Below, in pieces: positions 12,584 to 59,754 of a DNA stretch of 64,000 nucleotides (its first letter is position 1; each line of letters begins with the position of its first letter). The notes under the pieces are model-generated. The model saw only the letters and a list, made by a program, of their open reading frames with translations. It did no database searches and was not told where the DNA came from. Position numbers and translations under genes: made by a program. The stretch spans positions 1-64,000 of the forward strand of contig CALBCY010000146.1 of NCBI GenBank assembly GCA_937927195.1, read 5' to 3'. The DNA comes from an uncultured Chitinophagales bacterium (GTDB lineage: Bacteria > Bacteroidota > Bacteroidia > Chitinophagales > UBA2359).

Positions 12584-12655
12584 GAAATGAAAACGGAAAT
12601 AAAAACGGAAATGAAAACGGAAATGAAAACGGAAACAAAAACGGAAACAAAAAAT
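12584..12655. repeat. Six 12-bp direct repeats
   Basis: Six consecutive 12-bp units of the form GAAATGAAAACG run with no length change; units vary only at the fifth and sixth base and in the last copy. The final unit fuses into the left arm of the marC terminator. Confidence 0.85.
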
Positions 12656-15922: not shown

Positions 15923-16003
15923 AAAACCAAAAGTTTAAAAAACCAAAAGTTCAAAAGTCTAAAAACCAAAAGTCTAAAAAGCCAAAAGTCGAAAAGTCCA
16001 AAA
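15923..16003. repeat. Degenerate repeat tract running into the Sua5 start codon
   Basis: Units of about 15 bp built on CCAAAAGTCTAAAAA repeat four to five times, with shorter fragments between. The tract ends 2 bp before the TTG start of the downstream gene. It is open in that gene's frame and would encode a Lys-rich string (KPKVQKSKNQKSKK), but no start codon precedes it. Confidence 0.75.
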
Positions 16004-16005
16004 AA

Positions 16006-27703: not shown

Positions 27704-29836
27704 ATGCTAATTATTAGGAAACAATTCATCGATCGATCATATTTTCGGTTTTGCTTCTATGTTCTTTTGTTCTTGTTGGTACAAGAGAATTTATTGATCC
27801 TCAATGCACAGGAAACTTCTGGTATTGAAGAACAGAACGATTCAATTGATCTGTTGCTTTTGCCTTTTGATTTACCTGAAATTGAATTAAGAGAAGCTAC
27901 TGTTAAAAGCCTTAATAACTATTCAGTTTTAAGTGCGAGAGATATAGCCATTCAGGATCAGAAACACATTTCACAATCTCTCAACAACGTCTCAGGGGTC
28001 TACATGCATTCCGGGGCTCTGAATACCAACAGAATTACCATCCGAGGAATAGGAAGCCGCTCACCTTTCGGTACCAATAAAATTAAAGCTTTTATGGATG
28101 AAATTCCATTGACCAATGGAGTTGGTGAAACAGGAATTGAAGATTTAGACTTGAGTTTTGTGGATCAAGTGGAGGTATGGAAAGGGCCAACAACAAGCCG
28201 ATATGGAGCTGGATTGGGAGGAATGATTCAACTTAAAACACCTGATCCAAGCAAGCAAGAAGAATACATGACCATGGAAGGCTATTATGGGTCTTATGGA
28301 TACAATCGTTTGGTTCACAAATCCCTTTATACCAATCCCAAGATAAATCAGGTTCTGTTTTACAGTTTGAATAAAACCCATTCGGATGGTTATCGTGACA
28401 ACAATGAATATGACCGCTATTCCATTACTTTGCTCAACCGCTCAAAAGTGTTGACAGGCGTGCTTTCAATTTTAGTAAATCACCTTAATCAAAAAGCATT
28501 TATCCCCAGTTCATTGAACGAAGAAGACTATGAGACTGAACCCAGTAAAGCTGCCTTTACATGGGGGCGTGTAAAAGGTTTTGAGGACTATAAAAAGACA
28601 ATGCTCGGATTGTCTTATAAGTCTGGGATTAAAGACGTCGCGGAATTGACGATGGTCGCCAATTTATTCCATTACGATTCTTATGAGTCTCGACCTTTCA
28701 ATATTTTAAGAGAAAACAGCTTGGCAACCAATGGAAGATTACTTGTGAATTCTAAGCCGTTTATCAACAATCGAGCGACCTTGAATTTTGGGATGGAGTA
28801 CTATCAGGAACAGTACGACTGGGAGACTTTTCAAACCAATGATGGAGCATTGGGAGATGCCTTGAGCATTAATGAAGAAAGTAGAAATTATCAAAACGTG
28901 TTTTCTGAATTTCAATTTAGAATCAATAACAGATTGAAGTTTAAAACTGGTCTGAATTACAACAATACATCCTATGATTTGACAGACTTGTTTCCCGCTG
29001 ACAGCACAGACATTTCAGGAGAATATTCCTTCGATAATATCTGGTCTCCAAGAATTGTCTTAAGTTATTTGCCAGGAAATTTCACTCAAATATACTTGAG
29101 TGCGAGTCATGGATTTAGTCCACCGACATTGGAAGAAACACTTAAGCCTGATGGTCTGATCAATACTGATATTCAGCCAGAAACAGGATGGAGTTATGAA
29201 CTGGGCGGTAGAGGTTCTTTGATTCAAAATAAGCTAGCTTGGGAAGTATCATTGTATTCCATGCAGATTAGAAATTTATTGGTGGCAAGACGATTGGAAT
29301 TGGATCAATACATAGGCGTAAATGCTGGTGAAACACAACACAACGGATTGGAATTAGATCTTAACTATTCTATTGTGAAAAAGTCGGATCGAAGCATCAA
29401 TTTCAAAGTAGCTTATGCCTATCAAAGTTTCAACTTCCAAGAATTTCAGGATGATGAAAATGATTATTCCGGAAATGAATTGACTGGAACTTCTCCGCAT
29501 TTATTAAATGCAATTTTATCAGGCTCTTTTAAAGGGCTTTACGGCAATCTTCATTTCAATTATGTCGATGCAATGCCTCTTAGAGATGACAATTCCGTTT
29601 ACTCTGACTCTTATAGTTTATTGAATTTGAAATTGGGTTATACCAAGCAGTTCGGTGAAAGAATTGAGATTGATGTTTTCGGTGGAATAGCGAATCTACT
29701 TGATGAAAAGTATGCCTCTATGCATTTGATCAATGCTTCTAGTTTTGGTGGAAATGCGCCCAGGTATTATTATCCTGGATTGCCAAGAAATTATTATGGA
29801 GGAATTGTTTTGAAATGCTTATTTGAGTTGGATTAG
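27704..29836 (+). CDS. TonB-dependent outer-membrane receptor
   Basis: The 710-residue protein has an N-terminal hydrophobic leader (about 12-35, FCFYVLLFLLVQENLLILNAQ), a plug domain with SLNNVSGVYMHSG, NRITIRGIGSR and QVEVWKGPTTSRYGAG, and a 22-strand-type barrel ending in YYGGIVLKCLFELD. It takes up a substrate by TonB energy across the outer membrane. The layout, without a carboxypeptidase-like domain, fits siderophore-type or other small-ligand receptors, but the ligand cannot be read from sequence. It follows lgt by about 60 bp. Confidence 0.88.
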   Translation: MLIIRKQFIDRSYFRFCFYVLLFLLVQENLLILNAQETSGIEEQNDSIDLLLLPFDLPEIELREATVKSLNNYSVLSARDIAIQDQKHISQSLNNVSGVYMHSGALNTNRITIRGIGSRSPFGTNKIKAFMDEIPLTNGVGETGIEDLDLSFVDQVEVWKGPTTSRYGAGLGGMIQLKTPDPSKQEEYMTMEGYYGSYGYNRLVHKSLYTNPKINQVLFYSLNKTHSDGYRDNNEYDRYSITLLNRSKVLTGVLSILVNHLNQKAFIPSSLNEEDYETEPSKAAFTWGRVKGFEDYKKTMLGLSYKSGIKDVAELTMVANLFHYDSYESRPFNILRENSLATNGRLLVNSKPFINNRATLNFGMEYYQEQYDWETFQTNDGALGDALSINEESRNYQNVFSEFQFRINNRLKFKTGLNYNNTSYDLTDLFPADSTDISGEYSFDNIWSPRIVLSYLPGNFTQIYLSASHGFSPPTLEETLKPDGLINTDIQPETGWSYELGGRGSLIQNKLAWEVSLYSMQIRNLLVARRLELDQYIGVNAGETQHNGLELDLNYSIVKKSDRSINFKVAYAYQSFNFQEFQDDENDYSGNELTGTSPHLLNAILSGSFKGLYGNLHFNYVDAMPLRDDNSVYSDSYSLLNLKLGYTKQFGERIEIDVFGGIANLLDEKYASMHLINASSFGGNAPRYYYPGLPRNYYGGIVLKCLFELD

Positions 29837-29910
29837 GGGAGTTTAGCTTTCGCTCGCTGTCCTTGGCGATAAGCCTTTTACAGTCAGCCTTTTGTGCTAA
29901 GCTAAGATAT

Positions 29911-29950
29911 AAGCTTTTTTGATGATTTTTTCATTCGAAAAAATGAGCTT
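29911..29950. terminator. Possible AT-rich terminator between convergent genes
   Basis: Inner arms ATTTTTTC (29925-29932) and GAAAAAAT (29937-29944) and outer AAGCT/AGCTT pair around a 4-base loop. It lies at the end of both the plus-strand receptor and the minus-strand operon. The stem is AT-rich, so strength is doubtful. Confidence 0.35.
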
Positions 29951-29952
29951 GT

Positions 29953-30230
29953 TTAACCAATATTCAAATATTCACAATTGTCATTTTTTCTTTTTCGAAT
30001 GATTTTTTCCAGGAGCTTAATTAATGAACCGACCAATGTCATAAGCAATATGATGTATAAAAATTTAATGTCAAAAACAAAAGCCCCAATAAGATAAATC
30101 CCTATGATTGAAACATGTATATCCAGGTGATGAAGAAATTTATCTTATCCCGTTTGTAATCATGACGATATCCTAAAGTGAGGATAAGAATAAAGCCAAT
30201 GACGAATAGTAATGTAAAGATGACAAGCAT
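29953..30230 (-). pseudogene. Small membrane protein gene broken by a 5-bp tandem duplication
   Basis: From the ATG at 30230 the frame runs MLVIFTLLFVIGFILILTLGYRHDYKRDK and then stops 13 codons later. The five bases TTATC occur twice (30140-30144 and 30145-30149, plus strand). Removing one copy restores a single frame of exactly 90 codons plus stop, which continues through two more hydrophobic segments (VSIIGIYLIGAFVFDIKFLY, then IILLMTLVGSLIKLL) to a basic tail KKIIRKRKN-like. The intact protein would be a three-segment membrane protein. It begins 9 bp after the stop of the TonB receptor and so ends the rpe operon. It may be a true mutation, a switch, or a sequencing error. Confidence 0.65.
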
Positions 30231-30239
30231 AAGATCAGC

Positions 30240-32789
30240 TTAAAATTTCACAATCATCCTGGCATTCAATCTTCTATTTGTCAAACGATTAGGCACTGGA
30301 TAATAAAGTCCTGTGAAATCATTTATCCAATTGTAAGAGCTGGTGTTTTTGATGTTTAGCAAATTGAAAACCTCGACAGCAAACCAAATGTTTTCAAATT
30401 TATTTAGAAGGCTATTCATCCGCAATTCCTTCTTTCCTTTTTCGAATAAAAGCGCTGAAAAACCAATATCGACTCTTATATAACTTGGAGTACTTAACCT
30501 GTTTCTATTTTGAATGTCATTTGGTGGCCCAAAGGGTAGGGGCGTTCCGAACAATAAATTTAGGTTCATTTTGAAATTTTCTTTCCCTGGCAAATTGTCC
30601 TGGAAGAAAATGCTGAAATTTAGCAATTGATTCGTTGGTCTTTTTATCCATCCAAGCGTTGTGTCGATGGTATAAGCAATCGAATCTCTACCCGGTAATG
30701 TTCTTATTGAATCCGCATTGTAATACAAAGTATAGCCATCGTCTTCCAACTTTTCTTTGGTTTGTAGGAGGGATAAACTAAACCAAGATTCTGTTCCGGG
30801 AACAAACTCTCCATTTACCCTTAGGTCTATTCCTGCACTGTATCCTTTTGCTCTGTTTTCACCATAATAGCGAATCAACACATTGTCCAGATCGTATGGA
30901 ACCAAGTCCCACATCCATTTAAAATAGGCTTCAGAGGTAAATTTGAATGGTCTTCCCCACCAATAAAAATCATAATCCATTCCACCAATCACATGGATCG
31001 ATTTTTGGGATTTCAAACTGGTATTTACCTTTCCTTGGTAGTTCCTCATTTCACGGTAAAAAGGAGGCTGATAGTAGGACCCCGCTGCTAGTCTGAAATT
31101 CAGTTTCGTTGAATCCCTTTTGGTCGAATCTACCCTCATGTTCCTTTTGGGCTGAAAGCCTAATTGAACCCTTGGTGTTACAAAAAACTCCTCGTTTACA
31201 CTCCAGTAATTGAATCTTGCACCATAGGTCAAATTAACTATGCTGCTGTCTCCAAAAGTCCAGCTGTCTTGAAGAAAACCAGAAACCCTATGGGATTCCA
31301 AATCAAAATCACTTTTTAGAACTTTGAACAAATCGACAATTTCATAATTCGGACCCGAAGAAAAATTTCCAGTTACATCTGAACTCAAAGAGTAACCCGC
31401 AGAGTCAACTCTTTGCCATTCATTCAAACGATCATCGATGTCTTCAAACTGATACTTGGTGCCCCATGAGATAAAATGATTGCCTTTTTCTAAAAATCCT
31501 TTATAGGCAAAGTTGCCAATTGTAGCTTGCAATTTGTTTCTTGCCCAATCGTGATAAGTTCCCACCCCATATTCAGAGGTAACTTGTCCAAACTCTTCTT
31601 TACCAAGATCACTTTCAACTTCACCGATAAAGTATTCTCCAATAATGTCATAAGTTTCAGTCTCAGAAGTCGTGAAAAGCGAGGCCAAAAATTTCATGCT
31701 CAACTTATTGTCAGTTGAAGTATAAATACCACCAAGGCCTGCCATAAATGAATCGTAAGTATCCTTTTCTCTTCCTTCAAAAGCCGTTCTGATTTGTTTT
31801 ACACTTAATATGGAACCCAATCTTTCTATTTGTGATTCAGGCTGAAATTCATACCTGTTTTTGGAGTAGTTTGAAATCAATTGTAGTTGCCATTTCTGGT
31901 TTACTTGGTAGCTTAGAAAAGATTGGAAGTCAACAAAAAGTGGGTCATAGGTTCCTTGTTGTGAGAGAGAATTGAGGAGGTACGCATTTCTTCTTTGCCT
32001 AATTCCAGCCACATAAGTCAATCGTTTTCTTTTATCGGTACCTTCCAAGTGTGCATTTATGCCCATTAAACTAGCGGATACAGAACCACCAAAATCTTTT
32101 GGTTTTTTGTATTTAATGTCAAGGACAGAAGACATCTTATCCCCATATTTTGATTCAAATCCTCCCGCTGAAAAGGCAATTGAACTGACAAGATCAGAAT
32201 TTATAAAACTCAATCCTTCCTGTTGTCCGGATCTAACTAAAAATGGTCTGTAAATTTCAAAATCATTGACATAGATTAAATTCTCATCATAATTTCCACC
32301 TCTCACTGAATATTGGCTAGACAATTCATTACTGGAAGATACTCCCGGAAGGGTTTTGATCAATGCTTCCACACCACCTGTTGTACTGGGAAGGCGTTCA
32401 ACCTGAGAGGCTTTTAACCTGGTTATTCCTGCAGAACCTCTTTCTTTTTCAGCTTTAACCACCACTCCAGTTATATTCTGAGATTCACTCGTCATGGTAA
32501 TATCCTGCTGTAATCGCTTTTTGTTGAAAAAGCTAAGAACGATGGTCTGGTTGGAAAATAGGATTGAACTGTATTCCAATCTTACTGTTTTGGCTTCCCC
32601 TACATTTAACTCGTAATATCCCTCCGCATTGGTCGAAGTTCCTGTTGTACTATTGGGAATAACAATGTTTATGTATTCAAGTGGCTCGCCATCTTTATCT
32701 GTTACCGTCCCAAAAACTATGTTTTGAGCTTTTAGGCCTGTCAAACTACAAATAAAGAAAAGGGAAAGAATAAAAATTCTATGCATCAT
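30240..32789 (-). CDS. TonB-dependent receptor with carboxypeptidase-like N-terminal domain
   Basis: The 849-residue protein has a signal peptide (IFILSLFFICSLTGLKAQ), a carboxypeptidase-D regulatory-like domain at about 22-110 (GTVTDKDGEPLEYINIVI), a plug with LPSTTGGVEALIKTLPGVSS and QYSVRGGNYDENLIYVN, and an outer-membrane barrel ending in LNARMIVKF. No SusD partner follows, so polysaccharide uptake is not supported. It lies 13 bp after rpe in the same operon. The ligand is unknown. Confidence 0.9.
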   Translation of the reverse strand: MMHRIFILSLFFICSLTGLKAQNIVFGTVTDKDGEPLEYINIVIPNSTTGTSTNAEGYYELNVGEAKTVRLEYSSILFSNQTIVLSFFNKKRLQQDITMTSESQNITGVVVKAEKERGSAGITRLKASQVERLPSTTGGVEALIKTLPGVSSSNELSSQYSVRGGNYDENLIYVNDFEIYRPFLVRSGQQEGLSFINSDLVSSIAFSAGGFESKYGDKMSSVLDIKYKKPKDFGGSVSASLMGINAHLEGTDKRKRLTYVAGIRQRRNAYLLNSLSQQGTYDPLFVDFQSFLSYQVNQKWQLQLISNYSKNRYEFQPESQIERLGSILSVKQIRTAFEGREKDTYDSFMAGLGGIYTSTDNKLSMKFLASLFTTSETETYDIIGEYFIGEVESDLGKEEFGQVTSEYGVGTYHDWARNKLQATIGNFAYKGFLEKGNHFISWGTKYQFEDIDDRLNEWQRVDSAGYSLSSDVTGNFSSGPNYEIVDLFKVLKSDFDLESHRVSGFLQDSWTFGDSSIVNLTYGARFNYWSVNEEFFVTPRVQLGFQPKRNMRVDSTKRDSTKLNFRLAAGSYYQPPFYREMRNYQGKVNTSLKSQKSIHVIGGMDYDFYWWGRPFKFTSEAYFKWMWDLVPYDLDNVLIRYYGENRAKGYSAGIDLRVNGEFVPGTESWFSLSLLQTKEKLEDDGYTLYYNADSIRTLPGRDSIAYTIDTTLGWIKRPTNQLLNFSIFFQDNLPGKENFKMNLNLLFGTPLPFGPPNDIQNRNRLSTPSYIRVDIGFSALLFEKGKKELRMNSLLNKFENIWFAVEVFNLLNIKNTSSYNWINDFTGLYYPVPNRLTNRRLNARMIVKF

Positions 32790-32802: not shown

Positions 32803-33471
32803 CTAGCAAAGTAAATTATTCGGAGAAAGGTTTTTCAAATTGGAAATAGCATCACTTGGAGCGTCAGTCTTAAAAATACTGCTCCCAGCAACCAAAACAT
32901 CGGCGCCTGATTGGATTAAATCTACTGCATTTCCAAGTCCAACTCCACCATCAATTTCTATTAGTGCTGGGCTTTTTTTCTCTAAAATTAGATTTTTTAA
33001 TTTTCTCACCTTCAAAAAGGTGTTTTCTATAAATTTTTGGCCTCCGAAACCTGGATTGACAGACATTATACAAACCAAATCGAGATCAGCAATTATTTCT
33101 TCCAAGCCATTAATGGAAGTGTGTGGATTGAGTGCGACTCCAGCCTTCAATCCAAGCGATTTGATCAATTGAATGGTTCTGTGTAGATGTGGGCAAGCTT
33201 CTAAGTGTACAGTAATTACATCTGCTCCGACTTTTGCAAACTTCGGAATTAGTAAATCTGGTTCGACGATCATCAAATGAACATCGAATGTTTTTTTTGT
33301 TAAATGGCGAATAGATTCAATAATTGGAAAGCCAAAAGAAATATTTGGAACAAAGCGTCCATCCATTACATCAATATGAACCCAATCAGCTAGACTCTGG
33401 TCGATCATGGTAATATCTGAACCTAGATTGGAGAAGTTTGCTGCAAGAATAGAAGGAGCGATTTTATGCAT
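32803..33471 (-). CDS. rpe: Ribulose-phosphate 3-epimerase
   Basis: Rpe interconverts ribulose 5-phosphate and xylulose 5-phosphate in the pentose phosphate pathway. The 222-residue TIM-barrel protein starts with the family signature IAPSILAANFSNLG. Conserved metal and catalytic parts follow: VHIDVMDGRFVPNISFG, FDVHLMIVEPD, MSVNPGFGGQKF and EIDGGVGLGN. All are intact. It is the first gene of an operon with a TonB receptor and the broken small membrane gene, a pairing with no obvious metabolic logic. Confidence 0.96.
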   Translation of the reverse strand: MHKIAPSILAANFSNLGSDITMIDQSLADWVHIDVMDGRFVPNISFGFPIIESIRHLTKKTFDVHLMIVEPDLLIPKFAKVGADVITVHLEACPHLHRTIQLIKSLGLKAGVALNPHTSINGLEEIIADLDLVCIMSVNPGFGGQKFIENTFLKVRKLKNLILEKKSPALIEIDGGVGLGNAVDLIQSGADVLVAGSSIFKTDAPSDAISNLKNLSPNNLLC

Positions 33472-43763: not shown

Positions 43764-43770
43764 CGATATG

Positions 43771-43812
43771 GTATCCGGTTTCCGGTATCAGGCATCCGGT
43801 ATCCGGCATCCG
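43771..43812. repeat. Six 7-bp repeats
   Basis: GTATCCG, GTTTCCG, GTATCAG, GCATCCG, GTATCCG and GCATCCG follow each other with no length change, just after the SDR stop codon. Unit length and the ATCCGG core match the array at 444-520. Confidence 0.8.
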
Positions 43813-59524: not shown

Positions 59525-59554
59525 CAGAAAGAAACAGAAAGAAACAGAAAGAAA
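59525..59554. repeat. Three exact 10-bp repeats
   Basis: CAGAAAGAAA occurs three times in succession, upstream of the 946-residue T9SS protein gene. Confidence 0.85.
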
Positions 59555-59754
59555 CGGATGACAAGGAATATTATAGCTGTTTTTTATTGCTTGGGTCCCA
59601 AGCATTTTTTTACGCAGACCAACAAAAGGCATTCTTTGGGTCTTATGAGCTTTCTTTTGTTTTATGAAATCGGGAATAGAAGGGGATGAGAATTATCATT
59701 TAAAATTAAAAAGAAAATAAAAGAATACATTTTTCCTTTTTTCTTAACACAGTT

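Follow-up and report, generated by a model that had tools for sequence, protein, structure and literature searches.

The locus lies within a 64,000-nucleotide stretch from an uncultured Chitinophagales bacterium (contig CALBCY010000146.1, positions 1 to 64,000; hereafter the window). It comprises a small region of minus-strand open frames between a TonB-dependent receptor gene and a convergent gene, with the following features (basis of each assignment in parentheses):

27704-29836, plus strand: convergent gene, presumably a second TonB-receptor-like gene (ORF list)
29953-30144, minus strand: second open frame of 63 codons plus stop, carrying the other two hydrophobic stretches and the basic tail (reading-frame check and hydropathy)
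30102-30230, minus strand: 42-codon ORF as it stands, carrying the first hydrophobic stretch (ORF list and hydropathy)
30135-30141, minus strand: A_AAT_TTC, a heptamer of the X_XXZ_ZZN type in the right phase, within the overlap of the two frames (motif search)
30140-30149, minus strand: TTATC doublet, the meeting point of both frames (sequence)
30240-32789, minus strand: widely conserved gene upstream of the small frame, for a TonB-dependent receptor that has a carboxypeptidase-regulatory-like and a plug domain (Pfam and survey of relatives)
32803-33471, minus strand: gene adjoining the receptor, which we take to be rpe (locus comparison; name from the initial annotation)

The doublet at 30140-30149 consists of two head-to-tail copies of TTATC (TTATCTTATC; GATAA on the minus strand) and sits within the overlap of the two minus-strand frames. 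The second frame is in the -1 phase relative to the 42-codon ORF and ends at a stop at 29955-29953. When TTATC is taken as a single copy, the two are joined into one frame of 90 codons plus stop running from 30230 to 29953 on the minus strand (hereafter the read-through), the ATG of which is placed 10 bases 3′ of the receptor stop on the same strand. Hydropathy analysis of the read-through (windows with a mean Kyte-Doolittle value above 1.6) revealed hydrophobic windows at residues 1-19, 38-56 and 58-76, followed by a basic tail. The initial annotation had proposed that removal of one TTATC copy yields a clean 90-codon frame with three hydrophobic segments in phase with the stop, and its coordinates, strand and arithmetic were all confirmed.

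Since such a frame might also arise by chance, as two open frames of an AT-rich, T-rich spacer meeting at a common 5-base doublet with no gene involved, the expectation was calculated at several levels. Non-overlapping 5-bp doublets number 95 in the window (1.39 per kb in coding DNA versus 2.0 per kb outside the gene list), so that the doublet alone is nothing special there. When the 403-bp spacer was shuffled 20,000 times with its dinucleotides preserved, deleting one copy of a 5-bp doublet produced at least 90 codons 47 times, and 213 such events were counted when any of the periods 4, 5, 7, 8, 10 and 11 was allowed; if one base could be inserted or deleted anywhere, 7% of 150 shuffles had a best frame of at least 90 codons. 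The length of the read-through is therefore modest by itself, the more so because the window offers 23 uncovered stretches over 150 bases from which a reader could choose, two of them containing real-looking ORFs missing from the gene list. With these two left out, the runner-up among the window's actual spacers gave a joined frame of only 62 codons, which speaks against a chance origin. Adding hydrophobicity changed the result: at least 90 codons with at least two hydrophobic windows occurred 3 times (5-bp doublets) and 9 times (six periods) in the 20,000 shuffles, and at least 90 codons with three hydrophobic windows never occurred in either set. Of 2000 random 90-codon frames with matching dinucleotide composition, 0.9% had three hydrophobic windows. 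Only the combination of length and hydrophobicity is thus unusual, a pairing that was picked out after looking, and the shuffle result for length with three hydrophobic stretches favours a real or former membrane-protein gene.

Codon use pointed in the other direction. Scored on the window's own genes, the read-through ranked, among 178 coding chunks, within the bottom 0.6% for all codons and the bottom 1.1% for synonymous codons, and it was equalled or beaten by 45% (all codons) and 90% (synonymous) of 210 noncoding stretches; the picture was unchanged with a larger codon table, which was built from 104 ORF-derived genes of the window and of further stretches of its genome and comprised 47,827 codons. 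When the comparison was restricted to hydrophobic sequences, 7% (all codons) and 4% (synonymous) of 28 coding chunks scored as low as the read-through and 27% and 76%, respectively, of 41 noncoding frames scored at least as high, giving coding-to-noncoding ratios of 0.46 (all codons) and 0.12 (synonymous) from sets that are small and gene lists that are mechanical. The codon choice of the read-through looks like that of spacer DNA and counts against a gene. Its GC content by codon position (0.40/0.19/0.31) is similar in order to that of hydrophobic coding chunks (mean GC1 0.41, GC3 0.35), a point in favour of a gene, though the low GC2 is a consequence of hydrophobicity.

We then compared the read-through with other genomes and databases. 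No convincing relative was found in 20 genomes of the family or 396 genomes of the order, nor in 395 genomes of the class searched with a two-row profile, and no relative in 72,556 plasmid records; the two-row alignment had no match in viral contigs. Scanning the genomes of 84,980 species with a pattern yielded neither a relative nor another copy, and no second copy was found within the same genome. The best Pfam hit (E 0.027) did not reach the cut-off, and the best hits in NCBIfam (E 0.12), PHROGs (E 0.1) and PDB (E 0.66) were not above chance. Homology to an intact protein, the mark of a pseudogene of a known family, was accordingly not found in these databases or the 396 genomes of the order. 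The initial annotation had named the lack of an intact version in any relative as an observation that would refute it, and none emerged from the searches run.

Several candidates were considered and set aside. The idea of a protein like Mrp antiporter subunit F or another known small membrane family was unmatched in Pfam and NCBIfam. A match in one of the 396 genomes (G068, E 2.8e-4) fell on a hydrophobic hairpin within a longer membrane protein and was unconvincing, and other families of the class offered small ORFs (61-97 codons) whose match lay chiefly in the first hydrophobic stretch. The closest lookalike was an intact 86-codon ORF in genome G012 (L033:1486-1746, minus strand; E 0.034, 30% identity), the best of 20 genomes and selected as such. 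Like the read-through, it has a hydrophobic start, a GYxxD(Y/F)xRD-like motif and IIRKR near the end; unlike it, it has only two hydrophobic windows and another gene neighbourhood, and its alignment score is at decoy level. That score was reached by 4 of 2000 class-preserving (hydropathy-preserving) shuffles, 2 of 2000 segment shuffles and none of 2000 global shuffles, and when two hydropathy-preserving decoys were run against these 20 genomes, their best hits had E values of 0.031 and 0.023. Because decoys do equally well, the resemblance is what any sequence of such composition finds, and the lookalike was rejected as an intact homologue. In the reciprocal search, a profile of the lookalike and its relative in genome G172 placed the window frame at the top of the hits from the genome to which it belongs, with E 0.24. 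The same profile matched 9 of 395 genomes of the phylum at E ≤ 0.01; the three of these places that were inspected contain no small ORF of the lookalike's kind. Around the lookalike, G012 carries at L048 6184-7791 a 171-codon transposase-like ORF, which we take to be of the REP-associated type, followed by two ORFs that both start with MLLVSDQQGN and are probably copies of a repeat.

The initial annotation had also placed the small frame at the end of an operon with rpe and the receptor. The receptor family was present in all 60 relatives surveyed (E ≤ 0.001), mostly as a long orthologue. Of the 31 receptor loci compared from other genomes (29 of this survey and 2 more), 25 have rpe next to the receptor. 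The sugar-phosphate enzyme and the outer-membrane receptor form an old pair that has lasted, and for these two genes the operon stands. The small frame does not share in it: no match to the read-through lies behind the receptor at any of the 31 loci, four of the 29 survey loci holding little DNA there (32, 36, 256 and 412 bases), which indicates that it is not part of the conserved rpe-receptor operon. In a genome of the same genus (G002), the gene order around the site is the same, but a different 718-codon gene replaces the second receptor, and the syntenic spacer (225 bp) contains no matching frame and no DNA similarity to the small frame. This 718-codon gene (L049 2317-4473) is unrelated to the 27704-29836 gene of the window and lies between two conserved blocks; the location is perhaps a place of gene exchange. 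The absence of the frame from all 31 receptor loci, the failure to find a relative, the spacer-like codons and the abundance of 5-bp doublets are what a chance frame predicts, and we regard such an origin as a substantial possibility, short of an even one.

A further proposal of the initial annotation was an on/off switch, in which slippage between one and two TTATC copies would turn a membrane protein on and off. A single copy does open the frame and two close it, and, as in slipped-strand phase-variable genes, the tandem repeat lies within the reading frame and its unit is not divisible by three. The window frame differs from such genes in having the unit only twice and not as a long tract, and neither an intact allele nor a homologue bearing a repeat tract was found. 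What identifies a switch, according to PMC11868660, is a repeat number that exceeds genome expectation; the tract subject to slippage in mod, as cited in PMC3711429, has more than 30 units. A 5-base unit present twice does not reach such numbers, so a TTATC switch is unsupported. With doublets common in the window and neither an intact allele nor a second genomic copy found, we consider the proposal extremely improbable.

Nothing would be broken if programmed -1 ribosomal frameshifting at A_AAT_TTC joined both frames into a product of about 92 residues. The heptamer at 30141-30135 lies in phase inside the overlap, and U_UU.C ranked second among the tetramers in E. coli with the IS3 pseudoknot present, as reported in PMC4066793. 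The same paper describes tetramer motifs as barely or not shifty when the stimulator is missing, and no stable structure follows the heptamer here (z +1.23; of 200 shuffles, 184 gave an equally good or better fold). Such a heptamer is moreover expected by chance in 12.6% of 42-nt overlaps, and the organisation of the frames is not conserved, no relative having been found in the 20 genomes of the family, the 396 of the order or the 31 loci. These results make frameshifting very improbable. Broadly taken, an orphan three-segment membrane protein of an environmental Bacteroidetes-like lineage, either made by way of -1 frameshifting at A_AAT_TTC or switched through gain and loss of a TTATC copy, is likewise quite improbable.

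Indel errors are known to occur at short repeats of two copies. The second TTATC might stem from faulty assembly or consensus calling, or represent a minority allele, with an intact one-copy gene in the living cells. The assembly comprises 372 contigs, and sequencing errors are among the expected sources of orphan frameshifted singletons according to PMC3711429. Nothing positive indicates an error at this site, however, and the genes flanking the small frame are intact; we judge this explanation unlikely.

The reading that we prefer, and rate as about evenly balanced, is that of an orphan membrane-protein frame closed by a 5-base duplication, an ordinary young pseudogene. A lineage-specific frame of 90 codons for a small membrane protein would once have lain between the receptor and the convergent gene, and would have been thrown out of frame when five bases within the first third of its length were duplicated in tandem. 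As assembled, the genome can yield no more than a peptide of 42 residues that has a single hydrophobic segment and a tail out of frame, and for this reason the small frame is most likely non-functional. The anatomy of the sequence is shown directly, as is the lack both of detectable relatives and of a conserved position in the operon, whereas we infer the former translation as one protein and the role of the duplication as the lesion. The initial description, a membrane gene of small size interrupted by a 5-bp duplication, fits the clean 90-codon frame, its hydrophobicity and basic tail and the closeness of its ATG to the receptor stop, and sits poorly with the spacer-like codons and the lack of relatives. 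A search of the literature on short duplications and pseudogenes returned nothing pertinent.

We file the small frame among orphan frameshifted singletons of the type described in PMC3711429, and as an ordinary one. As in the orphan "fs-gene" singletons obtained there with GeneTack, two overlapping frames are joined by one shift and have no protein match in other species; unlike them, the present case was found by eye, not by GeneTack, and its frameshift coincides with a 5-bp doublet. The same paper attributes such singletons to gene overlaps, sequencing errors or indels. As one among many orphan frameshifted frames, the small frame matters little as it stands. It illustrates that the reading of a single genome can suggest a switch where comparison yields no intact allele, and it would become a simple case of short tandem duplications toggling a gene if reads did show mixed copy numbers.

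The surrounding spacer was examined for other features. No match to RNA families and no terminator-like sites were found at 29700-30400, a hairpin at the 3′ end (z -1.39) was not clearly better than shuffles, and the spacer at 29830-29955 does not recur as a dispersed repeat. At 29959-29974, within the 3′ end of the read-through frame, stands a perfect 8-bp doublet (AATATTCA). It resembles the repeat-rich spacers of the window and was counted against a former gene. Perfect 8-bp doublets number 3 outside versus 0 inside the gene list, and 12-bp doublets 5 versus 1. Short tandem arrays with periods of 7 to 39, several of them intergenic, occur at 444-518, 12584-12653, 15923-16004, 43770-43812 and 59525-59555.
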